Virus record (IMG/VR): IMGVR_UViG_3300046750_000743
Location: 1 to 64,000 of that record
Reading direction: 5' to 3' (one strand)
Source of the DNA: a virus
Length of the DNA: 64,000 bases
Shown here: positions 1 through 55,134 of the stretch, piece after piece
How the letters are laid out: each line of letters opens with the position of its first letter
Numbering within the stretch: the first letter of the stretch is position 1
Translations under genes and position numbers: made by a program
Notes under the pieces: model-generated
The model's database searches: none
Seen by the model: only the letters and a program-made list of their open reading frames with translations
What the model was told of the DNA's origin: nothing

Positions 1-3000
1 AAACAGTTATATCAAGGTAGATACGACAGACGGTTCAGAGCTGATCACATTCGGTAAGGAGGTGGCCTTTGACACAGCTACCTTTACGGGTGACGTATCT
101 TACGACTCCGCCCTGACCGTAGACGGTCTTCTTACCGCGAATGCAGGGATCACTGCTGATAACTTCTCTGTAGCGGATGCTACGGGTAATACCCAAATCG
201 GAGGCACTCTTACTGTCACCTCTACAGTCACGGCTACCGCAGAGGGATCTCGGATTGCAGATTTCACCTTTAATAACGGCGAGATCACTTCTGCAACAGG
301 TACGATTGACTTCAGCAATGAAAGTCTCACTACTACAGGTTCTGTTACCGTTGCTTCTCTCAACGTCTCTGACGGGAATATCACTAATGTAGGTGACATC
401 TCTCTCGACACGATCTCTTCTGACAGCTCTACCATTGTTGTTTCGATGGATGACAATGTTGCGGGATCTTTTGAAGTTAAAGAAGGTCTAAACAGTTATA
501 TCAAGGCAGACACAACAGACGGTTCAGAGCTGATCACATTCGGTAAGGAGACTACCTTCTCAGATGCGGTCAATGCTTCAGCGACTGTGACGGTCGATGG
601 CCTTCTTACTGCAAACGCAGGGATCACTGCTGATAACTTCTCTGTAGCGGATACGTCAGGTAATACTCAGGTCGGAGGCACTCTTACTGTTGACGGTCTT
701 CTTACTGCGAGCGGGGGGATCTCTGCCGATAATTTCACTGTAGCGGATACGTCAGGTAATACAACCATCAGCGGAACTCTTCAAGCAGAGGATGCCGTGA
801 CGGTCGATGGTCTTCTTACCGCGAATGGGGGAATCACTGCTGATAACTTCTCTGTAGCGGACACGTCAGGTAATACTCAGATCGGAGGCACACTCACTGT
901 CACCTCTACGATCACGGCTACCGCAGAGGGAACTCAGATCGCAGATTTCACCTTTAATAACGGCGAGGTTACTTCTGCTACAGGTACGATTGACTTCGCA
1001 AATGAGAATCTCACTACAACAGGTTCTGTTACCGTTGCTTCTCTCAGCGTCGCGGAGGGAGATATCACTAATGTGGGTGATATCTCCCTTGATACGATCT
1101 CTTCTGACAGCTCTACCATTGTTGTTTCGATGGATGATAATGTTGCGGGATCTTTTGAAGTTAAAGAAGGTCTAAACAGTTATATCAAGGTAGACACAAC
1201 AGACGGCTTAGAGCTGATCACGTTCAGTAGAGATGTGATTTTTGCAGGGACTGCGAACTTCACCAGCGGGGCTATCGGGCTAAACGGTGGGAACATCGTG
1301 GTCAACGAAAACGGAAATGCCACAGACTTTAGAGTTGAGACACCTCTCTCTTCAGAAGCTCTTTTTGTGGATGGTACGAATGACCTCGTTGAAGTAAACC
1401 GACCTCTTGATGTTACGGGTGCAACGACAGTGTCGGGATCTTTTGATGTTTCGGGGGCGACTTCTCTAAATGGGGTACTTTCCATCTTGTCCTCTGACCT
1501 CGCAGGAGATGCGAACAATCAATCTGCTTTAGTACTTCTCAACTCAGATGCTACCGCAGTCGGAACTGAGAGAGACGCTAAGATTGAAGTGGAGAGAGGC
1601 ACGGCAACCAACTCCTACATCCAATGGGATGAGTCTGAGGATGAGTGGTCAGTCTCGAACGCCCTACACTCCGTAGGCAACTTCGACGTTAATGGGAACT
1701 TCAGTGTCGCCTCTGCGAGTGGGAATACCTCTGTAGGGGGGACTCTAGCTGTCACCTCTACGATCACGGCTACCGCAGAAGGAACTCAGATCGCAGATTT
1801 CACCTTTAATAACGGCGAGGTCACTTCTGCTACAGGTACGATTGACTTCGCAAATGAGAATCTCACTACAACAGGTTCTGTAACTTGCACCAACCTCACG
1901 GTGAACGGAACTCTCACCACAGTGAACTCGACGGATCTTGAAGTAGTGGATTCAATGATCCGTCTTAACAAAGGAGCGGGATCTGGGGCTAATAACACCA
2001 GAGACATCGGTATCTTCATGGAGAGGGGGAGCGATGAAGACGATGCGGTGTTCTTCTTCGATGAAGACGACTCTATCTTTAAGATGGGTCTCACTCAAAC
2101 GGCAAGTACCGCGACGGACTTCACTGAACCAACTACTTGGGGTGCGTTGAAGATAGGTACGTTGACGACAACCAATGCCGTGACTTCAGCGGGGGTAGTG
2201 AACGCAAATGGTGGTATCGCCATTGACACTAACGGATTCACTGTTGACGGGGCGAATTATAACCTTTCAACAACAGGTGAAGTTCTCGTAACCAAGACCT
2301 CCGCCAATGCTTTGAAGGTGGAGACAGATGCAAACGGTGAGATCTTTAACATTGACACCACCACACCAAAGGTCACTGTTACAACAGCGGTGTTCGAACC
2401 CGATGCAGGAATCAATGTTGGTGCTGATGTCTTTAGCGTAAGTAATACAGGTGTCACTTCGATACTTAATACAGTCAACGTAAAAGCAGATAACACCGCC
2501 GCCCTAGTAGTAGAGAAAGCAAACGGCACTGACGTTGTAAACGTAGACACTACGAACAGCATCACCACCGTAACGGGTCAATTTAAAACCGATGACTTGA
2601 GAGCAAGTTCTACAGGGACGGGGAGCTTTAAGATCAACTTGGTGAACAACATCGCCAACGCTCTTGAAATTAAAGATCTCGGTGCTGGAGGTGACGCGGA
2701 CTCATACATGACCTTCAACACCACCGAGGGATCTGAACTAATCACTTTAGCTCAACCTACTGCCTTTAGTGGTCTAACTACCCTACAGGGGGAGGTGAAC
2801 GTAGAGTCGAACACTAACGGTATCGTCTTCAACTCAGACCTTACAGGAAATGGCGAAGAGAGCGACGCTAAGCTGATAACAGTTGAAAGAGGCACTGAGA
2901 CTAATGCCTTGATTGAATGGGATGAGGACAATGACGAGTTTAACATTAACTCTGTTTCTGGCCTCCACCTTCAAGGCAAAGCAGGAGCAAACGCCTTAAC

Positions 3001-5200
3001 CGTAGGCGATACAACTTCAGCGGGAACTACAACCGCGACTTTAACAACGGCAGGTGCCTTGAGTCTCGCTTCTACTCTTAATGTCACAGGTGTAACGACC
3101 TTGACAGGCTTAGCGATCAATACGCTGTCGGACAACGACGGCGATGGAATTGTGGTTGAACTCGCTGACAATGACACCGATGCTTTCGTTATTAAGCAAG
3201 GTGATGCGGGGGAGGCTTACGTTACTGTAAACACTACCGCCGAGTCTTTGACGCTCAATCAGAGTACCGCGACGAGTTCAGACCTAAGCGTGGGAACAAC
3301 TCTCACGGTCACGGGTCAAAGTACACTCGATGACACTTTAAATATTAAAGCGTCTCCCACCAATAGTGTTGCAATCCTCTTGAACTCAGACAGTGCGGAT
3401 GCCGACGTATCTATCTTCAAAGTGAACGATACGACAGCAAACGTGCAGTTTGATTGGGATGACTCAGAAGGGTCTTTTGTCGTAAAGGGAGGCAAGCTCC
3501 ACTCTGAGACTCAGGTCACAGTCGGCGGAACGATCACAACAGACCCTAACTTCACCGTTGCCACATCAGGTGAGGTAAGCACAGAATCTACGGTCACTGC
3601 TTCTGGTAATGTAAAGACTTCGTCTGGTGCTATCCAGATTGACACCCCTAGCTTGGGTGCGATCACATTCAACTCGGATGACACAGCGGAACTCGACGCA
3701 CATGACTTCGGGATCACCGTATCAAGACCTTCGGCTGGCACGGACGCTGTTTTCTTCTGGGATGAGTCCGAGAATGTTTGGCAGTTCAACAACGCGGGTA
3801 ATGTCCAAGTGGCAAATACTCTCATTGCTGACTCTGACGCAGGCGGTGCGATTTCCATTTCAAGTGGGCTGATCACCTCTGCTTCTGGCACCATCAGCTT
3901 TGACAATGAGAACCTTACGACCACAGGCACGCTGACCGCAGGCGTGGCGACATTAACTTCCGTAAATGTCACAAGTGATGGCTTAAGTACAATCACATTA
4001 AATAGTGATCTAGCAGGGGGTGTAGCTCCTTCACAAAACGTAGGTATCACTGTAAACAGAGGTTCTTCGACAGATGCGACATTGCACTATGATGAGACTG
4101 CAGACACTTGGAAAGCGGATAGGGGAGACGGCAACGCTGAGATTCTGCTTACTGAAGAAGACGTGCTCTACACGTTAACTACAGACTCGGGAGGGGGATC
4201 TACATACAGCTTTGACCAGAAGACAAATAACGCACTCTCCATTCTTGGAACGGCTAATGAGATTGGCGTTACAAACACCGACGGTGCAGTTACAATAGCT
4301 ATCGAAGACAACCCGACCCTCATAGGTTCATCGGCACAAGGTGTTCTTATCTCAGGCAATGTTACCGTTACAGGTAACTTCAGTGGTACAGGTGCGGCAG
4401 TCAAACTAGCTGACCGCATGATCTACTTGGGTCAAAATAACGACTCTGCCACAAGAGATCTCGGTTGGTACTCCAAATACGGCAATAATCTCGCCGCCGC
4501 TCGATATGCAGGCATGATCTACCAACCAGAAGAAACCGATGCAGACGCAAAAGATGGAGTCTACAAAGTATTTCACGGTATCAGTACAGATCTCTCTCTA
4601 GGTACAGACCTGAACATTACCGTAACAGATTCTGAGCTGGCTCCTATTGACACCTCTATGGTAAGAGGCGGTAAAGCATCAGGGGCGGATCTTACAGGTG
4701 CAGATCTTACCTTATCAGGAGGCTTGAGTACGGGTTCTGCTGACGGCGGGTCAATTGTATTTAAGACAGCATCTCCGAGCGGGTCTGGGTCGAGCAGTAA
4801 CTCGGCATCCACTGCCCTTACAATTAATGCAGGTCAAAGAGTGATCACTTCAAGTGATTTGGCTGTAGGCGGGCAAGCTGTCCTAGATACCTCGACAATA
4901 TCTCTTGGTAACGGAGACATTACTTTTGCTGTCACGAAGTCGTACCATAAGGTCACCCCTGACGGTGCGAACAATACCATCTCAACGATCACAGGCGGAG
5001 AGACAGGGTCGATCTTGGTGATCCAAAAGAGTGGTGGAGGTAACCTTATATTAAGTGACGATGGAACTTCAGGCACTGCGGACGGCCTCGCTCTCGCGAC
5101 AGGTAGCAATATTACTCTCAGCAACGATTACTCATCAGCTACTTTCATCTACAATGGGACGAATTGGTCTCTTATCTCTAGCGTCACTGTAGGTGCTTAA
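1..5200 (+). CDS. Repeat-built tail fiber or virion appendage protein (5' partial)
   Basis: The frame is open from base 2 and the translation before the GTG at 62 matches the end of an internal repeat (NSYIKVDTTDG), so the true start lies upstream of the window. More than 1,700 residues are visible, rich in T, S, D, G and V. Two kinds of module recur: blocks like ADNFSVADTSGNTQIGGTL and DFTFNNGEVTSATGTIDF, and about six modules with an ERG...WDE core (for example near residues 520, 660, 960 and 1220). Such modules are typical of phage fibers and beta-structured appendages, from memory especially marine phages. The C-terminal 350 residues are non-repetitive and could be the tip or receptor-binding part. 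No chaperone or enzyme motif is visible. Host-recognition function is inferred from architecture only. Confidence 0.72.
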   Translation, partial: NSYIKVDTTDGSELITFGKEVAFDTATFTGDVSYDSALTVDGLLTANAGITADNFSVADATGNTQIGGTLTVTSTVTATAEGSRIADFTFNNGEITSATGTIDFSNESLTTTGSVTVASLNVSDGNITNVGDISLDTISSDSSTIVVSMDDNVAGSFEVKEGLNSYIKADTTDGSELITFGKETTFSDAVNASATVTVDGLLTANAGITADNFSVADTSGNTQVGGTLTVDGLLTASGGISADNFTVADTSGNTTISGTLQAEDAVTVDGLLTANGGITADNFSVADTSGNTQIGGTLTVTSTITATAEGTQIADFTFNNGEVTSATGTIDFANENLTTTGSVTVASLSVAEGDITNVGDISLDTISSDSSTIVVSMDDNVAGSFEVKEGLNSYIKVDTTDGLELITFSRDVIFAGTANFTSGAIGLNGGNIVVNENGNATDFRVETPLSSEALFVDGTNDLVEVNRPLDVTGATTVSGSFDVSGATSLNGVLSILSSDLAGDANNQSALVLLNSDATAVGTERDAKIEVERGTATNSYIQWDESEDEWSVSNALHSVGNFDVNGNFSVASASGNTSVGGTLAVTSTITATAEGTQIADFTFNNGEVTSATGTIDFANENLTTTGSVTCTNLTVNGTLTTVNSTDLEVVDSMIRLNKGAGSGANNTRDIGIFMERGSDEDDAVFFFDEDDSIFKMGLTQTASTATDFTEPTTWGALKIGTLTTTNAVTSAGVVNANGGIAIDTNGFTVDGANYNLSTTGEVLVTKTSANALKVETDANGEIFNIDTTTPKVTVTTAVFEPDAGINVGADVFSVSNTGVTSILNTVNVKADNTAALVVEKANGTDVVNVDTTNSITTVTGQFKTDDLRASSTGTGSFKINLVNNIANALEIKDLGAGGDADSYMTFNTTEGSELITLAQPTAFSGLTTLQGEVNVESNTNGIVFNSDLTGNGEESDAKLITVERGTETNALIEWDEDNDEFNINSVSGLHLQGKAGANALTVGDTTSAGTTTATLTTAGALSLASTLNVTGVTTLTGLAINTLSDNDGDGIVVELADNDTDAFVIKQGDAGEAYVTVNTTAESLTLNQSTATSSDLSVGTTLTVTGQSTLDDTLNIKASPTNSVAILLNSDSADADVSIFKVNDTTANVQFDWDDSEGSFVVKGGKLHSETQVTVGGTITTDPNFTVATSGEVSTESTVTASGNVKTSSGAIQIDTPSLGAITFNSDDTAELDAHDFGITVSRPSAGTDAVFFWDESENVWQFNNAGNVQVANTLIADSDAGGAISISSGLITSASGTISFDNENLTTTGTLTAGVATLTSVNVTSDGLSTITLNSDLAGGVAPSQNVGITVNRGSSTDATLHYDETADTWKADRGDGNAEILLTEEDVLYTLTTDSGGGSTYSFDQKTNNALSILGTANEIGVTNTDGAVTIAIEDNPTLIGSSAQGVLISGNVTVTGNFSGTGAAVKLADRMIYLGQNNDSATRDLGWYSKYGNNLAAARYAGMIYQPEETDADAKDGVYKVFHGISTDLSLGTDLNITVTDSELAPIDTSMVRGGKASGADLTGADLTLSGGLSTGSADGGSIVFKTASPSGSGSSSNSASTALTINAGQRVITSSDLAVGGQAVLDTSTISLGNGDITFAVTKSYHKVTPDGANNTISTITGGETGSILVIQKSGGGNLILSDDGTSGTADGLALATGSNITLSNDYSSATFIYNGTNWSLISSVTVGA
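113..1224 (+). repeat. Long in-frame direct repeats inside the fiber gene
   Basis: Bases 113-540 and 797-1224 are near-identical direct repeats offset by 684 bp (228 codons). Parts recur again at 1-61, 490-550 and 1174-1234, and at 1753-1882. The offset keeps the reading frame, so the protein carries repeated modules. Many differences are synonymous, which suggests older duplications under protein-level selection. Confidence 0.85.
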
Positions 5201-5219
5201 GAAAAACTATGGTATCTCG

Positions 5220-5265
5220 CCTTTATGTTGGTATAAATAAGGAGAACTTAAAACCAACATAAAGG
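5220..5265 (+). promoter_or_regulatory. Late-type promoter inside an SD-occluding hairpin
   Basis: A perfect 13-bp inverted repeat (5220-5232 with 5253-5265) encloses a 20-nt loop. TATAAATA at 5232-5239 is identical to the T4 late promoter core. The 3' arm ends in AAAGG, which is the start of the SD AAAGGAG (5261-5267) of the gene at 5275. RNA started about 10 nt after the TATA box would lack the 5' arm and keep the SD free, while read-through RNA from the fiber gene would fold and hide it. The pairing is seen directly; the regulatory role is inference by analogy with T4. Confidence 0.6.
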
Positions 5266-5274
5266 AGAATACTC

Positions 5275-6204
5275 ATGAGTTCTCATACCATTTTTAAAAG
5301 AGGCACTTTTGTTAAGCTGAGAGCGAACTCGGTTATCCACTTGGGCAGGCTTGAGAGGAATATCTACGAAGGCGATGTCGTAGAATACGATGGTTTCTCA
5401 CTCAAGTTCGGCGGGCAGGTGACTGAAATGCCCGAGCTGAAAGCTGGAGTAAAGCGTGGTTGGCTCTCAATTGTTTCAGAAAACACAGAGCCTGAGCCTG
5501 AACCCCCGAAGCCTGAGATTAAAACGAAGAAAATGGCTGTCGAGAATGTCTATGACGAGGAGCGTCCCGTCACAAGGCTCAAAGAACCTGAGAAAAAGAA
5601 GGGGTCTAAGTTCCCTGTCGTCATTGAAAATCAAGACGAAGACATCATCACTGTCGCCAAAGTAGACAACAAGTCAGGTGCAGAAGTTGCAGGGTCTATG
5701 AATGACGGCATCTCTGAGATGCAAGAGGCAGAGTCCCTCTCAACTATCAAGTTAAGCACTTCTTCTAGGCAGAAAACTGTGATCTCTGATGGGTCTCAAG
5801 CGAGTGCCGAAATCTCGAAGTTAGAGAACCTTGAAGCACACGTCACCCATGTCAAAACTGCAAGTGTTGACATCGAAGATGATATCTCGCTAGAGGATGC
5901 CCCTCCCCCAGCTCCCGAAAAAGATTCGGAAATCGACGAACAGGCCTTAGAGAATGCACAGATCCTTCAAGCTATCGAAGGAGAGGTAAACCCTACACAG
6001 GGTGCCGTACCTGTAGGCAAAGACAACTCTAAGATCAAGATGCTTCCAAATGGAATCGAGTGGGACACCTCAAAGCATTGGTCTAAGAGGGCAAAGATCG
6101 CTATTGATATGTACGGCGACCAGCCTGATGTACTAGAGTCTATCATCAGTGTTGAGACTAAGGGCGTTAAGGCGGCTATCGAGAAAGAGCTCGGTAACTC
6201 TTAA
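5275..6204 (+). CDS. Hypothetical acidic linker-rich protein
   Basis: 309 residues, not recognised. Residues 1-75 look like a compact beta-rich domain (GTFVKLRAN, VVEYDGFSLKF). A long acidic, Pro/Glu/Lys-rich stretch follows with little predicted order (for example EPEPEPPKPE), then a C-terminal helical segment of about 60 residues. It starts at ATG 5275 behind AAAGGAG, under its own hairpin promoter, just after the fiber gene, so a virion-associated role is possible. It overlaps the opposing gene at 6201 by 4 nt. Confidence 0.7.
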   Translation: MSSHTIFKRGTFVKLRANSVIHLGRLERNIYEGDVVEYDGFSLKFGGQVTEMPELKAGVKRGWLSIVSENTEPEPEPPKPEIKTKKMAVENVYDEERPVTRLKEPEKKKGSKFPVVIENQDEDIITVAKVDNKSGAEVAGSMNDGISEMQEAESLSTIKLSTSSRQKTVISDGSQASAEISKLENLEAHVTHVKTASVDIEDDISLEDAPPPAPEKDSEIDEQALENAQILQAIEGEVNPTQGAVPVGKDNSKIKMLPNGIEWDTSKHWSKRAKIAIDMYGDQPDVLESIISVETKGVKAAIEKELGNS

Positions 6205-6629
6205 GACCTAACTACGCAAAATCCTCTTCTCACATTGTGGAGAACAGGAAACGAGCGGTCGCCTATGACGATCACAGAGCCTAAGAAAGAAGGGTCTTTA
6301 GGGTATACAAGACCCTCCTTAGACTCCACTTCTGTTATCCCAAGAGAGCGAAGTCTTTCTACGGCAGAAGCTAAAGAGGGTTGTTCTATGCCCCAACCTT
6401 CTTTAGCACCTCTCTCTATGACCATAGTGACCATCCGAGCTACCGTTTCTTCTACAGGACACTCTTGACCCCAAGTTAAAACGGTGTCTCTCTTGGAAGG
6501 AGCTTCAACCCACCTAAGGACTGAATCCTTAGAGGGGTTGCCTACCAGAAGTGGCCTACAAAGAGGCGGGACATCAACTTCTAACACAAGTGGTGTCTTA
6601 CTTTTCTTCAGTTTCAGTATTTCTATCAT
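6201..6629 (-). CDS. Hypothetical protein, last gene of the leftward replication operon
   Basis: Not recognised. I choose ATG 6629 over the ATG at 6668 because AGGGGAAG lies just upstream of 6629 and the overlap with the preceding gene (ending at 6598) is then only 32 nt. The 142-residue product has mixed alpha/beta composition and no transmembrane segment. Its 3' end overlaps the 3' end of the opposing gene at 6204. The position suggests co-transcription with the clamp and SbcC genes, but no function can be assigned. Confidence 0.6.
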   Translation of the reverse strand: MIEILKLKKSKTPLVLEVDVPPLCRPLLVGNPSKDSVLRWVEAPSKRDTVLTWGQECPVEETVARMVTMVIERGAKEGWGIEQPSLASAVERLRSLGITEVESKEGLVYPKDPSFLGSVIVIGDRSFPVLHNVRRGFCVVRS

Positions 6630-7005
6630 CTTCTTCCCCTGCGAGAACCCAAAGAAGAGCCGCCACATCTGGATACTGAGAGGCTATGGAGCCAATATCT
6701 TTTTGAGAAAGCAAAGCATCGAAGTCGCGATTGAACTCTTCTATAATCCGATCTTTCTCTCTAAAGGTTTTGAAAAAAGGACAAGTGTTAGGGACGGAAG
6801 GATCACATATCGTACCTTCCCACTCCCTCGGCTTGTCAGAGTCAAGGAGGCACACATGAAACAAAGGCTCGGATGAGTTCCCTCTAACTAGACCCGCGTG
6901 GTCACAGTTGCAAGGCTTCTTACTCAAGCCCGTCCGTATCGCTTTCTGCAATAGCCTATGGCGAACTTGTCGGAGCTTATGCTTAATCTTACCTGCGGTC
7001 TTCAT
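6598..7005 (-). CDS. Hypothetical Cys/His-containing protein
   Basis: 135 residues with a basic N-terminus and a Cys/His cluster (CNCDHAG near residue 33, then FHVC, ICDP and TCPFF), which could bind a metal. The C-terminus is acidic. It starts at ATG 7005, overlapping the stop of the SbcC C-half by 4 nt (ATGA), so it belongs to the same operon. No family recognised. Confidence 0.65.
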   Translation of the reverse strand: MKTAGKIKHKLRQVRHRLLQKAIRTGLSKKPCNCDHAGLVRGNSSEPLFHVCLLDSDKPREWEGTICDPSVPNTCPFFKTFREKDRIIEEFNRDFDALLSQKDIGSIASQYPDVAALLWVLAGEEDDRNTETEEK

Positions 7006-7616
7006 GTGATTCTCTTAATCTTCGCCCCTGTCTTAGAAGCAGTGACTTTGTAACCTATGTCAGCACCATCTGCAATCGTAGAATCGTGACTAATACAGAG
7101 AATGTCCATATTGAGTCTCTGGCAAAGAACCTTTAGAAATCCAACTAAGATCTCAGACCGACCGACATCTACTGAAGGGAAAGTCTCATCAAGTACCAAG
7201 AGCGGTCTGAGGTTTCTCTTCAAGACCAGAGACACCCTCAAGAGAAGGCTCTGGATTGTCGCCACAGCACCGCCAAAGGAATCCAGACCCTCACCCACCA
7301 CTTCTATACCATCCTCGCCTTTAAAGCTGGTTTTGAGTCTTACAGACACCTTACCTCTGAGCTTCAAGACCTCTGCGTGCAAACCTACCTCTTGCTCAGG
7401 GAAGATTGCCTTCAACCCCTCCTCTAAGAGGCACACATAGGCTGAGACACCTTGAGTAACCTCGTCTTCTGCAAGACGGTCAAGGATGAGGTTCGCCTCA
7501 TTAGCGAGATCAAGAGAAACTTCAAGAAGTCCGACCTCCGTCTCTAAAGAACGCACCCGTGAGACTGAGCTCTTGTGTAACACCTCTAGGTAAGAGAGTC
7601 GGGATCGGATGTCCAT
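7002..7616 (-). CDS. SbcC/Rad50-like ATPase, C-terminal half only
   Basis: 204 residues containing only the second half of an ABC/SMC-type ATPase head: a short coiled-coil start (residues 1-50), an ABC signature-like SFGGA (113-117), Walker B LLVLDE (139-144) and an H-loop SHD (176-178). There is no Walker A. In SbcC/Rad50 the two halves normally sit in one chain joined by a long coiled coil. Here the matching N-terminal half, with Walker A and zinc hook, is a separate gene at 58575-59711. I infer that the two chains assemble into one head and work with the SbcD-like nuclease at 50562. It starts immediately after the stop of the clamp gene. Confidence 0.78.
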   Translation of the reverse strand: MDIRSRLSYLEVLHKSSVSRVRSLETEVGLLEVSLDLANEANLILDRLAEDEVTQGVSAYVCLLEEGLKAIFPEQEVGLHAEVLKLRGKVSVRLKTSFKGEDGIEVVGEGLDSFGGAVATIQSLLLRVSLVLKRNLRPLLVLDETFPSVDVGRSEILVGFLKVLCQRLNMDILCISHDSTIADGADIGYKVTASKTGAKIKRIT

Positions 7617-8822
7617 CTAGACCATCCAACCTACGACACTTACGGTTTCTACACCAGAGTCTTGAAGAACCTTAAAGATCATATAGCCCTTGTTGTTCTC
7701 TCGGTTACACCCGATGAAGATGTTGTCAGAAGACATAGACTCTATCGCACGGGTCATATATTGGTAGTTGAAAGAGAATGAGTCAAAAGACTCCTCCGTC
7801 TCTCCTTTACGAGACCTCTCAACAAACATCTTCTCATCAGGTGATGTGAAGAGCTCTATTGCTTGGTCTGGGTTTTCGAGAGAAGCGGGACTCAAGCTGT
7901 AGCTCAGCTCGCCTCTTCCGTTGCTAGGTCGCATTGAGAGCTTTAAGGGAAGCATATCCCCCTCATCAGTAAGGCTAACCTTCAGATCATCCTTATCCGC
8001 ACCTGCTCTCAAGAACTTGATCGCGGTGTTCAAACTCCCCTTCTTGACACCCCATACTCTCTGAGGCACCCAATCGAAGGCTTCCGCGTAGCTGAGGATT
8101 GTTTTAGGATAATTGGAAGGGATATCCATCAAGCCAAAGAGACTTCCGTCCTCTGCCTTAAAGAAAGAAGATTGATCCCCCTTGAGGATCTCTACTTGAT
8201 CCGATTCCTTACTCTTGAGGAACTTTAAGAGTGGTGAAATATCCTTAGTGTGGATCTTCAAAGACAGGTCGTCAAGGCTCTCAGATCGAGCGACAGACAT
8301 CCCAAAGCCATCGCAAGCATAAGCTTTACCTGAGTCAACATACAACTGAGCCAACTCAGACCTGCTCTCTTCTGTAGAGACATAACTCTTCAAAGAGTTG
8401 AATGTGTCGAACAAGATTGAAGCGGAGACCTTCGTATCCTTCATTTGAGAAGCCGTATCTACACGGGACAACCATGAAGGAAATGAGTCAGGGTCTAGGC
8501 TCGTCAACGCAAGCTGTCCATTAGGGAGAGTGAACTTCACATTCTTATCGTCACCCATTTCAATGTTGACCACTCCTGTTACAGCACCCAACATTTGGAT
8601 TAGTCTCTTACCTTCAACGGTGAAAGAACCCTCCCCTGTTACCTGAGCACCTAACAAAGGAACTTTAGAGAAGGTTCGAGGGAGAGAGCAAGACATTACG
8701 CTAGCCCCATTCCCATCCTTCACAAATACGAAGTGGCTAGTGATATCAGAAGCCACGCCTAGTGTGTTAGAAGCTAACGTGACTGCGGACTTTAGGTCTT
8801 GGGTGGATATAGATATTTTCAT
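7617..8822 (-). CDS. dnaN: DnaN-type DNA polymerase sliding clamp
   Basis: 401 residues, close to but longer than bacterial beta clamps (about 370). The N-terminus MKISISTQDLKSAVTLASN, the turn LTSLDPDSFPSW (near residue 107) and the C-terminal FNYQYMTRAIESM match the conserved three-domain clamp layout. A ring clamp tethers the replicative polymerase to DNA. The phage also encodes DnaX-, delta- and delta-prime-like loader subunits elsewhere in the window, which supports the call. The ATG overlaps the stop of the coiled-coil gene upstream. Identification is by family pattern, not by search. Confidence 0.82.
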   Translation of the reverse strand: MKISISTQDLKSAVTLASNTLGVASDITSHFVFVKDGNGASVMSCSLPRTFSKVPLLGAQVTGEGSFTVEGKRLIQMLGAVTGVVNIEMGDDKNVKFTLPNGQLALTSLDPDSFPSWLSRVDTASQMKDTKVSASILFDTFNSLKSYVSTEESRSELAQLYVDSGKAYACDGFGMSVARSESLDDLSLKIHTKDISPLLKFLKSKESDQVEILKGDQSSFFKAEDGSLFGLMDIPSNYPKTILSYAEAFDWVPQRVWGVKKGSLNTAIKFLRAGADKDDLKVSLTDEGDMLPLKLSMRPSNGRGELSYSLSPASLENPDQAIELFTSPDEKMFVERSRKGETEESFDSFSFNYQYMTRAIESMSSDNIFIGCNRENNKGYMIFKVLQDSGVETVSVVGWMV

Positions 8823-9079
8823 CCTCTTACTCTACTTTCTATTTTTTCAATAACCGATTCTGCAAGCTCTAGTGCCTGAGTCAGTTTGGCTTTTTGGGCT
8901 TCGTTTTCTGATCGAAGCCGATTGATTTCGTCTTCAAGGGATTCTGGATCTATACCCTTCTCCCTCAACCTCTCATCTATCTTGGAAAGATTCTCTCTAG
9001 CCGCCTCTAGTTTACCAAGCAGTCTTTCTCTACGAGATAGAAGATCTTGCTTTTTGTGTAATATCGCCTCTGTATTCAT
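8819..9079 (-). CDS. Small coiled-coil protein
   Basis: 86 residues, almost entirely charged heptad-like helix (Leu/Glu/Arg/Lys rich), with one likely break at GIDPESLED near residue 43 that could make a helical hairpin. It is flanked by 4-nt overlaps with the nuclease gene upstream and the clamp gene downstream, so its production is coupled to both. It could be an accessory to the SbcC complex or the clamp, but no specific family is recognised. Confidence 0.75.
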   Translation of the reverse strand: MNTEAILHKKQDLLSRRERLLGKLEAARENLSKIDERLREKGIDPESLEDEINRLRSENEAQKAKLTQALELAESVIEKIESRVRG

Positions 9080-10008
9080 AGCTTCATACTCCCTAATGTA
9101 AGCACCTTGTAATTCTCATATTCTTTCGGCTCTTTTGGCTTACGTTTAGCTGCGTTAAGTTTCTTTTGCTCCTGCCTCGCTTCACAGATATTCTCAAAGT
9201 CACAGAAAGAGCAGTTTTTGGGTACAGGGTTTGCCTCGAAAACTCCCCGCTCAATGAGCCTGTGAGTTTCGATTGCTTCGTTACCTAGTCTCCTGATGTC
9301 ATCCTCAGTTAAAGAAACTTCAACCAGCCCTGTCCACTCAGAACTAGGGCTTGGGTTCTTCTTTGGAGGGTTCGACTTCGGATATCTAAAGTAGAAGAAC
9401 CCCAGCTTATCAGGCAAAACACCATACTCAAGCCTGAAACAGAGAGCGTACCATTTCAATTGGTCTTCATCTTCATACTTCATAGGTGTAGAGGCGTTCT
9501 TACCATCAAGTATCCAAAGTTTCCCGTCTAAGTCTCGGTATACAAGGTCTGCGATACCGCATACTTTCAGGCTTTTATTGATCTGGGGTGTCATACTTAG
9601 CTCAGACTGAGCATAGGTCTTAGAGATCATCTTGTGGTCTTTGACAATCTCTAAGAAGTTCCGAACGCCGTCGAGACAAACCTTCATGGCTTCTTCCCTT
9701 GTGAGATACGTCCACATGATGTGATGAGTCTGCTCCAGCTCTTCAAATTCCCCTTGAGCAATCTCTGTAAGTTTTGACAAGCAATCTTTTGGGTTCTCTA
9801 AGAGTCGATCATTATACATAACCTCCACCACCTTTGATAAGACCGACCCCATGAGCTTAAAATGCTCACTAGGTCTCTCCTCAAAAGCCAAAGGCTTGGG
9901 CTTACCGAAGCCCGCACCAAGATCGTGGTCGGGGTGACCTTTGTACCAAAGATATCTTAGAGGGCATTTCCTCACCATACTAATATGTGACCAATATAAT
10001 CTTTTCAT
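9076..10008 (-). CDS. Cas4/AddB-like Fe-S PD-(D/E)XK nuclease
   Basis: 310 residues. The layout matches RecB-family nucleases with an iron-sulfur cluster: an N-terminal Cys in KCPLRYLW (near residue 15), the catalytic block GIADLVYRD followed by LWILDGKN (D...DxK, about 150-170), and a C-terminal cluster CSFCDFENIC. These four cysteines are the Cas4/AddB pattern for a 4Fe-4S cluster. Such enzymes resect DNA ends. It is the first gene of the leftward operon with the clamp and SbcC half, which points to recombination-dependent replication or end processing. There are no CRISPR genes nearby. Confidence 0.82.
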   Translation of the reverse strand: MKRLYWSHISMVRKCPLRYLWYKGHPDHDLGAGFGKPKPLAFEERPSEHFKLMGSVLSKVVEVMYNDRLLENPKDCLSKLTEIAQGEFEELEQTHHIMWTYLTREEAMKVCLDGVRNFLEIVKDHKMISKTYAQSELSMTPQINKSLKVCGIADLVYRDLDGKLWILDGKNASTPMKYEDEDQLKWYALCFRLEYGVLPDKLGFFYFRYPKSNPPKKNPSPSSEWTGLVEVSLTEDDIRRLGNEAIETHRLIERGVFEANPVPKNCSFCDFENICEARQEQKKLNAAKRKPKEPKEYENYKVLTLGSMKL

Positions 10009-10040
10009 GTTACTCTCCTATCATAGACATTCTACCCTCT

Positions 10041-10050
10041 TATAAGAAAC
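10041..10050 (-). promoter_or_regulatory. Candidate promoter of the leftward replication operon
   Basis: Read leftward, TTATAAGAGGG lies about 35 nt upstream of ATG 10008, with an AGGAGAG SD closer to the start. TATAA elements at this distance precede many genes here on both strands. No clear -35 box is visible. Confidence 0.4.
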
Positions 10051-10083
10051 CACACGCACCCAAACAGAAAAAAAGGAGGAAGT

Positions 10084-10356
10084 GTGTATAGGATAGTGTT
10101 CAAAAGTAAAGGGCAGATAGAAGAGTACCTGTCAACAGACTTTGGAGAAGTAACAGACAAGATATTAGAACTCAAGATGAAGCACTACCTGTGGTTTGTC
10201 AGGGGTATGTGCGAGGAAAAAGAAGGAAGCACGATTTTCTTCGACACTGATTGTCATATGAGATCAGAAATACAGATTAGCAAGGACAATAGACCCTTAG
10301 ACGCAAAAGGATCTCAGTTTCTATGTGTGAACTACCTATTGTGCTTCGTTGGTTAA
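10084..10356 (+). CDS. Hypothetical small protein
   Basis: 90 residues from a GTG start at 10084, preceded by AAAGGAGGA ending 3 nt upstream. Not recognised; mixed alpha/beta composition with a hydrophobic C-terminal stretch (FLCVNYLLCFVG). It is the divergent neighbour of the nuclease gene, sharing a 75-bp intergenic region. Confidence 0.6.
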   Translation: MYRIVFKSKGQIEEYLSTDFGEVTDKILELKMKHYLWFVRGMCEEKEGSTIFFDTDCHMRSEIQISKDNRPLDAKGSQFLCVNYLLCFVG

Positions 10357-10397
10357 TATTCCCTTTATTAATAGGGAGTAAGAAAAGGAGAAAAGTT

Positions 10398-10901
10398 ATG
10401 AACATTTCATTTGCGAACCCATCGAAGACTTCAGGTCTGGATTCTATACTCTCGACCACCATCTCTGACCTGACGGACAGAAAGAGACGGACAGCAACGC
10501 CCTCCTTTGAACAAGGTACTAGGGTGGTAGCCCACACAAACAACGGCATTATACTACCAAGCCAATTACCCTCGTCAGGCACAAAGGGTACCGTTGTCGC
10601 AGTAGACACCCCCGACGGGGAGATAACGAGCTTAGAGGGTGAAATCTTTGTCCGATTCGATAACCGCAACAAGATTGACAGGATACCCTCTGACTTCCTC
10701 AAAGTCGCTAGCATGAAAGTAGCTAACCTCGATGAACACTTTATAGTTTTAAGCGGGCCTTCTCTTATGTGCTTTGCCTCTGAACAACCTGCCCTCATAC
10801 ACAAGTCCTCAGAAGACCTCTGGACTGTTAAAATGGGAGAAGACGGTTCTTATGAAGTAGAAAGGCTCTTTGATGACAAAGGGAATCCACTCAAGCTATG
10901 A
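10398..10901 (+). CDS. Hypothetical protein with SH3-like beta region
   Basis: Start set at ATG 10398, behind AAAAGGAGAAAA, rather than the in-frame ATG at 10323 that would overlap the previous gene. The 167-residue product has a flexible N-terminus and a beta-rich part (FEQGTRVVAHTNNG, GTKGTVVAVDT, GEIFVRFDN) resembling small SH3/KOW-type barrels. Function unknown. The start codon of the next small ORF lies inside its 3' end. Confidence 0.68.
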   Translation: MNISFANPSKTSGLDSILSTTISDLTDRKRRTATPSFEQGTRVVAHTNNGIILPSQLPSSGTKGTVVAVDTPDGEITSLEGEIFVRFDNRNKIDRIPSDFLKVASMKVANLDEHFIVLSGPSLMCFASEQPALIHKSSEDLWTVKMGEDGSYEVERLFDDKGNPLKL

Positions 10902-11115
10902 GGAGAAGACTCTGCCTGTCATACTCATAGGCGTAGACCCCATTGAAGCAAAAGGTTTTAACAAGGTATCGGTTAAGATAGGAGGCAAGGAGCTATTCCT
11001 GCATGAAGGGACTTTTGATGTCCACATGGAAGGAGAAACCCTCGCGATTCAATTCAGAAGTCAGGGTAAAGACTCTCACTTCTTAGAGAAGGGTAAGTCA
11101 CCACATTCATCTTGA
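10873..11115 (+). CDS. Hypothetical small protein
   Basis: About 81 residues; the start is uncertain (TTG 10870 or ATG 10873), overlapping the preceding gene by about 30 nt with a weak SD (AAAGG). Central residues (ILIGVDPIEAKGFNKVSVKIGG) look like a real beta domain. The 3' end runs 62 nt into the opposing gene that ends at 11054, an unusually long tail-to-tail overlap. It could be translationally coupled to the upstream gene. Confidence 0.5.
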   Translation: MTKGIHSSYEEKTLPVILIGVDPIEAKGFNKVSVKIGGKELFLHEGTFDVHMEGETLAIQFRSQGKDSHFLEKGKSPHSS

Positions 11116-11614
11116 GGGTAAATTCCAATTTCCCCGAAGGGGTCTTCCCGATGGAGGTTACCCCAAACCCGTACCTTGTTTCGTCGTCAAAAACCTCATC
11201 CACTACGTAACCTAGTGGCACGCGAATGTCCTCGTGTTCCTCAAAGCCGAGAAGTTCTGCAGTTACTTCCACGGGCAAGGACTTGAGATACTTCTTACCC
11301 GACTTCGTAAGAGCTACCGCTAAGATCTTGAGTTCCTTGGATAGCCAAGGTACGTTAAAAAGGTCTTTTGGGTCTATTGTAATTTTAACAATGGACTCGA
11401 ACCCCGATATTACCTTAATAGGGGTGTTGTATTGTGGCACACCTTCTCTATATGAAGACAAAGACGAACCTAGAACCTCAACCTCTTTCTTCGACACAAT
11501 TTTATGAGAAGCGAGAAAGATCTTCCTACACAAGAAACCGTACACAGACCTCTGATTGTATTTCTTTTTATTAAGAAACCTATTCAACACAATTCGTTCG
11601 ATCATACTTAACAT
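11054..11614 (-). CDS. Hypothetical protein
   Basis: 186 residues, basic at the N-terminus and beta-rich in the second half (SIVKITIDPKDLF, GKLEFTLKMNVV). Not recognised. ATG 11614 lies 6 nt behind an SD AAGGAG that is part of the hairpin at 11616-11643. It is transcribed leftward between two rightward and leftward neighbours, apparently as a single gene. Confidence 0.65.
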   Translation of the reverse strand: MLSMIERIVLNRFLNKKKYNQRSVYGFLCRKIFLASHKIVSKKEVEVLGSSLSSYREGVPQYNTPIKVISGFESIVKITIDPKDLFNVPWLSKELKILAVALTKSGKKYLKSLPVEVTAELLGFEEHEDIRVPLGYVVDEVFDDETRYGFGVTSIGKTPSGKLEFTLKMNVVTYPSLRSESLYPDF

Positions 11615-11615
11615 C

Positions 11616-11643
11616 TAATACTCCTTTTTCAACCAGAGTATTA
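11616..11643 (-). promoter_or_regulatory. SD-occluding hairpin with overlapping TATAAT
   Basis: A perfect 8-bp inverted repeat TAATACTC/GAGTATTA with a 12-nt loop. On the leftward strand, TATAAT overlaps the outer 5' arm and the GGAG of the SD lies at the start of the 3' arm. A transcript initiated from this box would lack most of the 5' arm. It has the same geometry as the hairpin at 5220-5265. Confidence 0.5.
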
Positions 11644-11651
11644 TAGATAAA

Positions 11652-12941
11652 TTACAAAAGATCAGCGGCAATATCGGAGAGGGTTGACCTTTCTGACTTA
11701 TGAAGACTCACACAGCCAAAGATCGACTGACCTCTCATTTTTTCAATGACATAGACAAGGCCGTTAGAGTTTGTGTCCAAGTAAGGGTGGTCAACCTGAT
11801 AAGGGTCTCCAAGAAGAACAACCTTTGTGCCTTCTGCCGCTCTGGTGATTATAGACTTGATCTCATGCTTAGTGAGATTCTGAGCTTCATCTATGATCAT
11901 ATAAGCCTGCTTGAGAGAACGACCCCTTATGGAGTGTATCGGTTGTATCTCAATTTGGTTTTTTTCTAAGAAGGTCTCCTTCGAGCCTGCCTCCAGCCCC
12001 AATGGTGAGGTGTCCCACATAGGGTTAATCTGGTCGAGGTTATCAAAGAAGCTCTGCATCCAAGGCTCCATCTTCTCTGACATAGAACCTGGAAGGAAGC
12101 CTATGCCTTTACCAACATCGACGACAGGCTTAGAGAGCAATATTCGGTGATACCGAGCAGTCTGCTCTAAGGCAGATGCGAGGGCGAGATATGTTTTCCC
12201 CGTACCTGCTTTACCTAGAAGGGCGACCAACTCTACCTCTGAGTCCATCAAAAGATCGAGAGCCGCACGTTGCTCTAGATTCCGTGGCTTCACGCGGTGT
12301 TCTGATTTGTGTATCGGGAAAAGAGTGTCGTCTCTAAATTGGAAGAGATGCGTCTTCTGCCTATTGTCTAAGAACCAGAAGTATTCGTTTTGGAAGGCCT
12401 TGAAGTCAAGGTCAAAAGGAATACGTACTGCACCCTCCCAATAAGACTTCACCAGAGAAGAGGTCAACACATGATCTGGAACAAACTCTTTGAGTCCAAG
12501 ACTGTCGTAGATGTTTGAAGTCGAAGAATCGGAGGTAAAGTCTTCTGAGAGTATTCCGTAAGACTCAGCAATGATCCTCAAGTTAACATCCTTAGACACT
12601 AGCTTTAGGTCGTACTTCTTACTAAAGAAGATAGAGGTTTGCAAGATGAGCAAGTCTACATATCGAATCTGAGAAGCTCGATCTAGAGACTTGATGTTGA
12701 TCTCTTCCTCATGAGAGACGACCTCGAGTGTTCCCTCCTTTATCATAGTAAGAATGATTGAAGATGCCTTTCGAGCGAGAGCACCAACATGAGCTTTCTC
12801 TCTTCGGCTTGTATCTTTCAGTATGTCCAGCTCCATAACCACAAAAATCGGTATCAGCACCTTTACGTCTTCGGCATAAGATCTGATTGATTGAGGGTCG
12901 TGGATAAGAACACTTGTGTCGAGGATCACGGCTTTCTGCAT
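11652..12941 (-). CDS. phoH: PIN-PhoH fusion ATPase (PhoH2/YlaK type)
   Basis: 429 residues in two domains. Residues 1-150 are a PIN-type RNase domain (ILDTSVLIHDP at the start, later acidic residues around LVSKDVNLR). Residues about 215-429 are a PhoH P-loop ATPase with Walker A GKAGTGKT (near 245) and Walker B MIIDEAQN (near 347). PIN-PhoH proteins are implicated in RNA unwinding and cleavage in bacteria. PhoH-family genes are common in large phages, but their role there is not settled. It is apparently a single-gene leftward unit with SD AGGAGA before ATG 12941. Confidence 0.9.
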   Translation of the reverse strand: MQKAVILDTSVLIHDPQSIRSYAEDVKVLIPIFVVMELDILKDTSRREKAHVGALARKASSIILTMIKEGTLEVVSHEEEINIKSLDRASQIRYVDLLILQTSIFFSKKYDLKLVSKDVNLRIIAESYGILSEDFTSDSSTSNIYDSLGLKEFVPDHVLTSSLVKSYWEGAVRIPFDLDFKAFQNEYFWFLDNRQKTHLFQFRDDTLFPIHKSEHRVKPRNLEQRAALDLLMDSEVELVALLGKAGTGKTYLALASALEQTARYHRILLSKPVVDVGKGIGFLPGSMSEKMEPWMQSFFDNLDQINPMWDTSPLGLEAGSKETFLEKNQIEIQPIHSIRGRSLKQAYMIIDEAQNLTKHEIKSIITRAAEGTKVVLLGDPYQVDHPYLDTNSNGLVYVIEKMRGQSIFGCVSLHKSERSTLSDIAADLL

Positions 12942-36260: not shown

Positions 36261-36300
36261 AAAATCGACACCTGTGAAATCAAACGCAGGTGTCGATTTT
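36261..36300. terminator. Strong rho-independent terminator
   Basis: 14-bp perfect stem AAAATCGACACCTG/CAGGTGTCGATTTT with a 12-nt loop, followed rightward by TGTTTG and with its own T run. It separates the 34256-36198 operon from nrdB. Confidence 0.85.
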
Positions 36301-37332: not shown

Positions 37333-37397
37333 TCAGATATACCTTTCTATAACTACTTTAAAGTCGGCATCAGCTTGTGAGTGCGAAGCCCCTCTGA

Positions 37398-37418
37398 CTC
37401 GATAGTTTCTCTATCGAG
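37398..37418 (+). promoter_or_regulatory. Leader hairpin of the pentapeptide genes
   Basis: Perfect 8-bp CTCGATAG/CTATCGAG with a 5-nt loop. The sequence from here through the start codon region (about 37400-37485) is duplicated at 38188-38273 in front of the second pentapeptide gene, where the 5' arm is shortened. Confidence 0.5.
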
Positions 37419-37455
37419 CCTCTCTTTGTGAACACAAGTAACAAGGAGCATAATT

Positions 37456-38193
37456 ATGGCTAATAAAAATGACGTAAAAAGAGCACTTGCGGGTGATAGG
37501 AATCTATCAGGTGCGGATCTCAGAAATGCGGATCTAACTGAAGCGAATCTTGAAGGTGTGGATCTTGACGGTGCGAAGCTCTCAGGTGCGGATCTAACAG
37601 GAGCGAATCTTTTTGGTGCGAAACTTATAGGAGCGAAGCTCTCAGGTGCGGATCTAACAGGAGCGAATCTTTTTGGTGCGAAACTTATAGGAGCGGTTCT
37701 CATAGATGCGGATCTCAAGGGTGCGAATCTTGAGGACGCGAATCTTGAGGGTGCGGATCTCACAAATGCGGATCTCAGAAATGCGTATCTCTGGAATGCT
37801 AAACTCGCAGGTGCGAAACTTGGCGGTGGGAATCTCACAGATGCGAATCTTAAGGATGCTAAACTCACAGGTGCGGATCTAACAGGTGCGAAGCTAGTAA
37901 GAGCGGATCTCAGAGGTGCGAAGCTCCTAGGTGCGGATCTCATTGAGGCGGATCTCAGAAAAGCTAAACTCAGAGGTGCGGATCTATCAGGTGCGGGTCT
38001 ATCAGATGCGAAAGGCATACCTCTGTCTATCTCTGATAAATTCCCCCACAAGGGAGAGACGGTCGAAGAAAAAGCCCGCAGAGAGAAAGAGGAAAAGGGA
38101 GGTCGCAAAGCTTCTCAGATCCGCGTAGCTTCTCGGATGAATAGAGAGCTTCAAAGAGAGATCAAAGCCTTGAAGAAGGATCTCAACCGATAG
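37456..38193 (+). CDS. Pentapeptide-repeat protein A
   Basis: 245 residues. Residues about 13-185 are unbroken A(D/N/K)LxGA pentapeptide repeats, which fold into a right-handed quadrilateral beta-helix. The C-terminus (GIPLSISDKFPHKGETVEEK) and a basic helix with ASQIRVASRMNREL follow. Some pentapeptide proteins mimic DNA and inhibit gyrase; many have unknown roles. A 60-bp unit is exactly duplicated at 37573-37695. The stop codon lies inside the duplicated leader of protein B. Confidence 0.88.
   Translation: MANKNDVKRALAGDRNLSGADLRNADLTEANLEGVDLDGAKLSGADLTGANLFGAKLIGAKLSGADLTGANLFGAKLIGAVLIDADLKGANLEDANLEGADLTNADLRNAYLWNAKLAGAKLGGGNLTDANLKDAKLTGADLTGAKLVRADLRGAKLLGADLIEADLRKAKLRGADLSGAGLSDAKGIPLSISDKFPHKGETVEEKARREKEEKGGRKASQIRVASRMNRELQREIKALKKDLNR
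37573..37695 (+). repeat. 60-bp exact tandem duplication
   Basis: Bases 37573-37635 are identical to 37633-37695, an exact in-frame copy of four pentapeptides. The absence of any substitution suggests a very recent expansion. Confidence 0.9.
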
Positions 38194-38273
38194 TTTCTCT
38201 ATCGAGCCTCTCTTTGTGAACACAAGTAACAAGGAGCATAATCATGGCTAATCCAAATGACGTAAAAAGAGCA
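38188..38273 (+). repeat. Duplicated leader and start region
   Basis: Near-identical to about 37400-37485: leader hairpin remnant, the stretch CCTCTCTTTGTGAACACAAG, SD AAGGAG and the first codons MANxNDVKRALxG. It records duplication of the pentapeptide gene. Confidence 0.85.
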
Positions 38274-45667: not shown

Positions 45668-45711
45668 AAGACCCCCCTTCACCTTTTGTGGTGTTGGGGG
45701 GTCTTCTTTTT
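45668..45711 (+). terminator. Rho-independent terminator
   Basis: 10-bp stem AAGACCCCCC/GGGGGGTCTT with an inner CACC/GGTG stem, followed by CTTTTTT. Strong terminator of the SSB-like transcript. Confidence 0.88.
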
Positions 45712-54050: not shown

Positions 54051-54566
54051 ATGAGATCAGAGTCTTGGGTTATCTTAGAAATAACCAGCAAGGGTGAAGA
54101 GGCAGTAGAGCAAGGCACTTTAAAAAGGTCTTTGCTTGAAGTGTCTCCTTTTAAAGAAGGGGACATCTTCATACCGATAGTCAAGCACGGAGGAAAACCC
54201 GTCTGGGTGATGGAGGGTTATATCTTCATCAAGTCAGGGTACGGTGCTTCTGACTACTTCGATCTTAGAAGAACGTACCTAATTCGGAATGTGGTTAGTC
54301 AGATAGATGAGTCAACGGGTTTGATCTCAAAAGGAGTTATCAGTACCAGAGACCTCAACTCGATGCTGAAAAGAGCTGATGAACTAGGTGCTAGGTTTGA
54401 TTTTGGAGACAAGGTTGCGATCAAGGACGGCGAATTCAAGGGTTTTGAAGCCACCGTCCTTGATCTCTTTGAGAAAGACAGTCTCAGGATGTACTCACTC
54501 CTTATAGACATGAGGAGTGTTGAAATAATAATAAGTGCAGACTGTCTGTCTGTAGAGAGTGTGTGA
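54051..54566 (+). CDS. NusG-like transcription elongation factor
   Basis: 171 residues. The N-terminal WVILEITSKG...GDIFIPIV...VMEGYIFIKSG follows the NGN domain of NusG (aromatic residue, then GYxFxx near residue 57). The C-terminal FDFGDKVAIKDGEFKGFEAT is a classical KOW segment. NusG binds RNA polymerase and alters pausing and termination; a phage-encoded relative could act as an antiterminator. It precedes a sigma-like gene by an 8-nt overlap region. Weak SD after a hairpin, suggesting low expression. Confidence 0.75.
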   Translation: MRSESWVILEITSKGEEAVEQGTLKRSLLEVSPFKEGDIFIPIVKHGGKPVWVMEGYIFIKSGYGASDYFDLRRTYLIRNVVSQIDESTGLISKGVISTRDLNSMLKRADELGARFDFGDKVAIKDGEFKGFEATVLDLFEKDSLRMYSLLIDMRSVEIIISADCLSVESV

Positions 54567-54567
54567 T

Positions 54568-55134
54568 ATGGACGCGAAGCTAATGGAAGAGATCTTCTCT
54601 AATGGACAAGGTCTTGACAGTCTGCCTTCTGCAAGCTTTGTAGCCCCCCATAAGGCATTACAGGTTCAGGAGATATTAGACCACATGAGCCACATATCTC
54701 CTATTGAGGCCGATATGGTAGAGCTTCATCTCTTAAAAGGGGTGAGTCAGGCACTATTAGGCAAGATCTTCGGGTACACCCAGCCTAACATACACTACAG
54801 AATTAATCGGGGTATAGACAGACTTAAAGTCTACTTGAAAATATCTTTATATACTGAGGAGGAACTCAGATCCCGACTGTCTGGGTTCTTTACAGAGAAG
54901 AAAGACATAGACGTGTTGGTCTATCTGTACCTGCACTCTAGTCAAAGCCATGTGGCTAGAATGCTAGGAGATACTCAAGGGAAGGTCAGGTATCGGTTCT
55001 TGAAGTGCATGGAGTCCTTATCTCAAGCTCCTAGCCTTGAAGACATTTACTTATCTATGAAGACCGTAGGGGACAACTTAACTTTGTTAAGGTGCGACTC
55101 AGATAAGGAACCGAGAAAAAGAGTTATACTATGA
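54568..55134 (+). CDS. HTH protein resembling sigma-70 region 4
   Basis: Start set at ATG 54568; GTG 54559 is possible. 188 residues with two helix-turn-helix units: EADMVELHLLKGVSQALLGK followed by IFGYTQPNIHYRINRGIDRL (about 50-95), and a second, shorter unit near 130-150 (SSQSHVARMLGDTQGKVRYR). The first matches sigma region 4.2 or a sigma-like transcription factor. No region 2 core-binding part is visible, so it may assist a host or phage polymerase. Follows the NusG-like gene. Confidence 0.55.
   Translation: MDAKLMEEIFSNGQGLDSLPSASFVAPHKALQVQEILDHMSHISPIEADMVELHLLKGVSQALLGKIFGYTQPNIHYRINRGIDRLKVYLKISLYTEEELRSRLSGFFTEKKDIDVLVYLYLHSSQSHVARMLGDTQGKVRYRFLKCMESLSQAPSLEDIYLSMKTVGDNLTLLRCDSDKEPRKRVIL

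Follow-up and report, generated by a model that had tools for sequence, protein, structure and literature searches.

A hairpin over a Shine-Dalgarno sequence as a probable silencer of read-through RNA, and its counterparts at co-directional genes in a lineage of huge phages

Genes and hairpin at the locus

The window, a 64,000-nucleotide stretch of viral DNA, belongs to a longer virus record of 105,415 bp which is 99.97 % identical to a stretch of the 177,493-bp genome G004. Two co-directional genes lie on its plus strand, the first (62–5200) encoding 1712 aa in the window and 2528 aa in the longer record, and the second (5275–6204) encoding a 309-aa protein without PHROG or Pfam match, while the region 7617–8822 has its match in a family of DNA polymerase processivity factors. 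Between the two genes, CCTTTATGTTGGT (5220–5232, +) pairs perfectly over 13 bp with ACCAACATAAAGG (5253–5265, +), enclosing TATAAATA (5232–5239, +), the first T of which is the last base of the stem. This confirms the preliminary description, in which a perfect stem had been reported around TATAAATA and its 3' arm was held to mask the Shine-Dalgarno sequence (SD), as this arm overlays the AAGG of AAGGAG (5262–5267, +), the SD of the 309-aa gene. Past one mismatch the fold adds two paired bases, up to G5267 of the SD. When mismatches are included, the hairpin has 21-nt arms (86 %) and ranks first among 41 inverted repeats found within a distance limit of 60, one other of which has longer, poorer arms (22 nt, 77 %). 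The fold of 5195–5300 has a z-score of -4.56, with 0/200 shuffles equally stable. A second AAGGAG occurs in the hairpin loop (5239–5244, +) without a start codon at a useful distance, and could be a ribosome standby site or a chance occurrence.

Pairing between upstream DNA and the own SD was evaluated for forty window genes, with 1000 shuffles each and thus a minimum p of 0.001. The 309-aa gene reaches this minimum and is the best of the forty, followed by the genes at 20802 (-; p = 0.026), 34256 (+; 0.034) and 44859 (+; 0.055), while those at 58575 (+; E -15.4) and 14241 (+; E -13.6) have p values of 0.134 and 0.154, respectively. No second window gene survives correction for forty tests. 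As the 309-aa gene alone is individually significant, the earlier statement that at least four more genes in the window share this geometry is not supported; it is frequent in relatives, but not demonstrably in the window. The stem is not terminator-like, with AGAATACTCATG and no T run following its 3' arm, and lies outside the reach of the intrinsic-terminator scan, which was limited to loops of 3–8. Strong stems followed by T-rich stretches at 36261–36300 (a perfect stem of 14 bp) and 45668–45705 are probable intrinsic terminators, and terminators thus seem to coexist with the hairpin device. Neighbouring genes elsewhere in the window have near-identical leaders of ~50 nt (gatagtttctctatcgagcctc...caaggagcataat; 37396–37455 and 38184–38243), probably reflecting a duplication which included the promoter. 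An Rfam search of the window yielded nothing at gathering score, and a near-identity DNA search of positions 1–12000 against phage records gave no match.

Homologues of the 309-aa gene occur at eleven loci, one of which (L011) is the near-identical longer record, and the encoded proteins share 59–65 % identity with that of the window, except in L011 (100 %). L002 (65 % protein identity) retains both the hairpin and TATAAATA, and of the fourteen consensus pairs compared with the window ten are unchanged, two have one-sided and two compensatory changes, and none is broken. Where neighbour orientation was compared (window/L011, L002, L004, L006, L010, L007 and L012), window/L011 and L002 have a co-directional upstream neighbour, while a 152–155-aa gene lies divergently upstream in the other five loci. 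The best duplexes between leader and SD score -17.1 in the window and -20.8 in L002, with co-directional neighbours, and -11.1 (L004), -5.3 (L006 and L010) and -3.2 (L007 and L012) with divergent neighbours. Scores of -5.3 (L005), -4.7 (L003; 59 nt only) and -3.2 (L008 and L009) were obtained for the remaining leaders. In the folds of L004, L006 and L007/L012, the SD is found in short local or downstream pairings. A 155-aa gene downstream of the 309-aa gene shows no detectable similarity to the divergent gene of L007.

Promoter candidates and the family motif

De novo motif analysis upstream of genes distinguished one dominant element, approximately TAATAGTTnTTTATA, in the genomes G001–G004, with log-likelihood gains of 134–641. 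The gain in the window's record is 123, compared to 42–47 in five shuffles. The motif ends mostly 30–50 nt before the start codon, and ATAGTTNNTTTATA occurs 47 times in 8/10 records, with zero occurrences of the reversed pattern. This motif is the putative promoter of the family. The heptamers CCTTTAT and ATAAAGG are complementary to each other. Two small families of sigma-like proteins, each present in 8/9 genomes, are encoded alongside it. A protein resembling sigma region 4 is encoded in the window at 54559–55134 (+), matching PF04545 (E 3.3e-5; 23.8 bits against a cut-off of 24.1) and PHROG sigma families (E 4e-4 and 8e-4). Of the other eight genomes, seven encode a relative, with none seen in G018. 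The second sigma-like family (L065: 1403–2029, -) is represented in G004 at 164049–164498 (-) or longer, outside the 105-kb record. In 4/4 scanned genomes this second, region-2-like family has E values of 1.8e-6 to 1.2e-5 against PHROG_1740 ('RNA polymerase sigma factor'), with Pfam Sigma70_r2 falling below the cut-off in two of the same four. Either sigma-like family may read the family motif. No beta-subunit RNA polymerase domain was detected in four genomes (0/4).

For the 309-aa gene itself, the candidate family promoter is a weak site, GTATCTCGCCTTTAT (5212–5226, +), which extends into the 5' arm of the hairpin and has TTTATG (5222–5227) as its core. Its score is 8.6 when the matrix comes from its own genome, this site included, 5.8 with that of G001 and at most 1.3 with that of G002, while its counterpart in L002 scores 11.0 with the matrix of its own genome and 8.2 with that of G002. 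A better match to the family motif occurs inside the upstream gene (5162–5176, +; 10.3 with the matrix of G002, 9.6 with that of G004). This match is at a greater distance from the start codon than is typical, and equally good sites number 18 in the window (both strands) versus 10 in a reversed control. If this were a real promoter, the RNA begun there would retain the hairpin.

In the preliminary description, TATAAATA in the loop had been taken for a T4-late-like promoter. The same masking mechanism would then operate with a T4-late-like factor and a transcription start near 5245–5250, which we regard as an unlikely, if serious, alternative to the family promoter. It draws on the presence of GTATAAATAA somewhere in 12/12 leaders of the 309-aa gene, although in four of these (L003, L005, L006 and L010) it directly precedes the start codon, and on GTATAAT, which is found upstream of genes twenty times as opposed to six for its reverse complement. 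Furthermore, a comparable layout exists at I-TevII of T4. The distribution of TATAAATA argues against it, as there are only two occurrences in the 64 kb of the window (1.45 expected) and 32 in the nine genomes, scattered and not positioned, while its reverse complement TATTTATA occurs 53 times in the nine genomes, 40 of these at 40–59 nt before a start codon. Within the examined parts of G001 and G003, TATAAATA upstream of genes is more often antisense than sense (10 versus 7 and 11 versus 4, respectively). In L004 and L007/L012 the leader TATAAATA corresponds, read antisense, to the core of a strong family motif (scores of 10.7 and 13.2, respectively), which would serve the divergent gene, and a gp55 query gave no match in seven genomes, in a search run without a positive control. 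On counts and orientation, TATAAATA is thus rejected as a general promoter, and in the window it may represent either an alternative T4-late-like promoter or the relic of an antisense promoter. In favour of the T4-late-like proposal, GTATAAATAA occurs in every leader and may have a role of its own. A second class of sense element, GGTATAA, is not established, with 37 sense and 38 antisense occurrences upstream of genes.

The TTTATG element appears, with some uncertainty, to be the likelier promoter of the 309-aa gene, although neither it nor TATAAATA makes a strong case. Judged from the motif matches, transcription from either would begin beyond the greater part or the whole of the 5' arm. The earlier idea that read-through RNA is masked agrees with the predicted folds, in which the probability of an unpaired SD is 0.01–0.16 for RNAs starting at 5000–5221 and 0.56 for starts at 5228–5240; for starts at 5244–5250, as expected from TATAAATA, it is 0.42–0.45.

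Distribution of hairpins by neighbour orientation

The wider occurrence of such hairpins was evaluated in nine genomes, comprising the window's longer record and eight relatives, with genes called by a simple custom script, so that many start codons may be wrong. Pairing of promoter-proximal DNA with the gene's own SD was compared by permutation to pairing with the SDs of other genes in the same genome. The discovery set includes 259 motif sites from G001–G004 with a score of at least 8, an SD and at least 45 nt of intergenic DNA. Perfect stems of at least 8 bp over the SD core are found at 32/259 sites, against a mean of 5.5 and a maximum of 9 in thirty permutations. Duplexes scoring -13 or lower occur at 40/154 co-directional sites (mean 8.5, maximum 14 in sixty permutations) and at 5/105 divergent sites (mean 3.95, maximum 8), a difference with a Fisher p of 3.9e-6. 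In a held-out set of five further genomes, scanned with the G002 matrix fixed, they occur at 38/105 co-directional sites (mean 6.8, maximum 12) and 3/66 divergent sites (mean 2.0, maximum 7; Fisher p = 7.7e-7). One held-out genome, G017, closely resembles G003 (86 % in alignments spanning 181 kb), and without it the counts are 34/88 and 3/48 (Fisher p = 3.4e-5). Hairpins are thus present at 26 % and 36 % of the co-directional promoters examined in the two sets, where permutation expects 5.5 % and 6.5 %, respectively.

The co-directional bias is observed in both sets where 60–80 nt (discovery: 11/28 co-directional versus 1/24 divergent) or 80–130 nt (4/26 versus 0/39) separate the genes. No bias exists at 45–60 nt in the discovery set (22/77 co-directional, 4/12 divergent), where the four divergent cases constitute two pairs, each with one common palindrome. 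Palindromes which incorporate the promoter of one gene and the SD of the other, on both strands, are located between the divergent genes 246635-/247230+ (L065) and 75691-/76584+ (L056) of G002, and likewise between 8355-/9039+ (L016) of G001. When the promoter motif was disregarded and duplexes of -16 or lower were counted per genome, a clear co-directional excess was found in G001, G002, G003, G007, G009 and G017. The excess is slight in G004, the window's own genome (5/63 against a mean of 1.6 and a maximum of 4), and absent in G013 and G018; in the held-out motif test, G013 has one hairpin among 14 co-directional sites. Divergent genes also show an excess in G001 (6/77; mean 1.5, maximum 4) and G009 (7/48; mean 1.3, maximum 3). 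The hairpins are thus concentrated at co-directional genes, as expected of a device against read-through RNA, with exceptions in G001, G009 and the short intergenic spaces. LR745208 (485 kb; 64 % terminase identity), which served as negative control, contains hardly any motif and no excess (co-directional 19/144, 24.0 expected; divergent 19/96, 17.6 expected).

The duplex score was also applied to the first 50 kb of T4. It detected I-TevII (-10.7), where the stem around TATAAATA covers the SD, and missed soc (-5.2) and 49 (-7.4; internal start -9.1), while gene 55 scored -11.5 without TATAAATA and 0/3 called genes with upstream TATAAAT[AG] reached -9. As known T4 cases are missed, a single score proves little, and the argument is based on permutation and orientation.

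Orthologues were compared as reciprocal-best pairs. Among 316 pairs in which one gene is co-directional and the other divergent, which are not independent and exclude those between G003 and G017, a duplex of -13 or lower is found only at the co-directional gene in 91, only at the divergent gene in 27, at both in 24 and at neither in 174; at -15 or lower these counts are 57, 18, 9 and 232, respectively. In 443 pairs of co-directional orthologues, both members have a hairpin in 49 (42.4 expected) at -13 or lower and in 25 (16.9 expected) at -15 or lower. Conservation between co-directional orthologues is thus modest, and the hairpins turn over. The stems of 25 genes compared between G003 and G017 contain 240 identical pairs, 27 with one-sided and four with compensatory changes, 66 broken and three gapped pairs, so that covariation is mixed. 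Compensatory changes inside the SD and its mask distinguish G003 34916 from G017 154841, and others are found between the stems at 14939 and 136842. Similar leaders precede the paralogous MRRSAS genes in L029 (G003 95435 and 95923), L045 (191203) and L048 (280933), each with the motif, the anti-SD CTCCAT and the SD ATGGAG, and their pairs are partly broken in G017. Co-directional stems incorporate 49 G.U and 21 A.C combinations, as opposed to 35 and 35 just outside the stems; since divergent stems are also rich in G.U (13 versus 6 A.C), this ratio does not discriminate RNA pairing.

These sequence differences also bear on a DNA-level or processing function, namely that the stems are operator palindromes, terminators or RNase processing sites between co-directional genes, which we consider highly unlikely. 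Inverted repeats do occur at intergenic promoters, a preference for co-directional genes would also result from processing or termination, and at least one stem, that at G001 30544, runs into eight T and may be a terminator. However, stem sequences vary between genes and orthologues, the permutation excess concerns the gene's own SD, and most of the stems inspected, like that in the window, lack a T run after the 3' arm. For example, the hairpins of the baseplate gene in G001 (30544), G002 (71472), G003 (249403) and G007 (238856) are of unrelated sequence, the baseplate PHROG match having been obtained with the G002 and G003 proteins and those of G001 and G007 linked by reciprocal best match.

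The position of the anti-SD relative to the promoter motif differs between the two orientations. Among the co-directional perfect stems of at least 8 bp, the anti-SD is centred between -3 and +11 after the end of the -10-like element in 20/26 stems of the discovery set (154 sites) and 12/14 of the held-out set (103 sites, two further sites being out of range), with one and zero, respectively, beyond +11. Divergent perfect stems number 6/105 in the discovery set (permutation mean 3.0, maximum 7) and 5/65 in the held-out set, above permutation (mean 1.07, maximum 4); 0/6 and 1/5 of these have the anti-SD between -3 and +11, nearly all others being farther upstream. An RNA started at the motif would be predicted to lose the region between -3 and +11, partly or wholly. 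The mean probability of an unpaired SD for 45 hairpin genes is 0.06 in long RNAs, 0.37 with a start at +6 and 0.52 at +10, with values of 0.37–0.53 for starts from +6 to +12, while sixty sampled genes without hairpin have values of 0.33, 0.42 (+6) and 0.45 (+10). With a sigma70-like start at +6, the probability exceeds 0.5 in 27 % of the hairpin genes and 35 % of those without hairpin, and with a start at +10 in 53 % and 37 %, respectively. A hairpin within the promoter-started mRNA might instead regulate this mRNA, as a thermosensor, by autoregulation or as a ligand or protein switch. Some stems, such as those at G001 171055 and G002 86479, which mask the SD unless transcription starts at +8 to +12, and the better motif match at 5162–5176, from which a hairpin-bearing RNA would start, are in keeping with such regulation. 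It would leave two features unaccounted for and is given little credence here: the anti-SD cores end at about +11 despite, by our reckoning, room further downstream, and they are scarce at divergent genes, where they would be equally useful. Least probable is a by-product of compact divergent promoters, with one palindrome serving as the SD of one gene and the promoter of the other, as at the three divergent pairs in G001 and G002 named above and as the complementarity of CCTTTAT to ATAAAGG would allow, since the main excess concerns co-directional genes, which have no need of a second promoter.

A PHROG scan of twenty of the 57 co-directional genes with duplexes of -15 or lower gave matches for nine, including baseplate proteins (two), the small subunit of ribonucleotide reductase (two), a helicase (one) and PhoH (one), while five of ten genes without hairpin had matches, including ribonucleotide reductase and tail proteins. 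With baseplate functions next to ribonucleotide reductase, a helicase and PhoH, the genes that have the device do not establish an early or late timing.

Proposed function and comparison with known systems

The hairpin in the window is probably a silencer of read-through RNA, made from the gene's own promoter DNA. The promoter would be situated within, or just after, the 5' arm, and the upstream gene (62–5200) would be the source of read-through RNA carrying this arm. In such RNA, the 5' arm would pair with the SD and ribosomes would be blocked, while RNA from the gene's own promoter would be devoid of all or a critical part of the arm and could be translated. The 309-aa gene would then be one member of a lineage-wide device, in which the anti-SD coincides with the -10-like element or follows it by no more than about 11 nt. 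On balance, and with more reserve, we favour the view that promoter and anti-SD have become one element in these huge phages, at some 25–33 % of the co-directional promoters of the lineage. Each such promoter would be a self-cancelling translational insulator against transcription arriving from upstream, a trait that comes and goes with neighbour orientation and does not depend on the T4 late system. The device would add translational insulation between genes that is partly predictable from gene order, and represents a compact design principle in which the promoter is itself the anti-SD. It may further allow promoters and start regions of uncultured phages to be recognised from sequence alone. 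Full-text searches of a literature collection lacking most subscription papers listed no report of genome-wide use of such a device.

The closest known parallels come from T4 and its relatives. In T4, long early RNAs of e (lysozyme) and I-TevI sequester the SD, while RNAs from the promoter immediately upstream, which are without the 5' strand of the structure, are translated (PMC3014915; PMC2988022). Late promoters with SD-sequestering RNA structures also belong to soc and 49. In Aeromonas phage Aeh1, an RNA hairpin likewise sequesters the ribosome binding site of mobE, and the promoter is arranged similarly (PMC2988022). The device proposed here would work by the same principle as e and I-TevI, which have TATAAATA promoters. 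It is set apart by its motif and scale, as the reported T4 cases are limited to a few genes, all with TATAAATA/gp55 promoters, while the hairpins of the present lineage accompany a different motif at the above proportions of co-directional promoters and have the appearance of a widespread rule. The T4 late system includes the sigma factor gp55, with gp33 and gp45; in the present lineage the gp55 query found no match in the seven genomes searched, again without a positive control. As TATAAATA is not a positioned sense promoter genome-wide, these phages fall outside the T4 late system as far as the promoter is concerned. Similarly, mobE is a single endonuclease gene in a T4 relative, unlike a lineage-wide device. 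The layout closest to that of the window is the I-TevII leader of T4 found in our own control, although I-TevII is an intron endonuclease and its promoter class probably differs from that of the window. Compared with these systems, the novelty lies in which motif and which phages are involved, in how widely the device is used and in its dependence on the orientation of genes.
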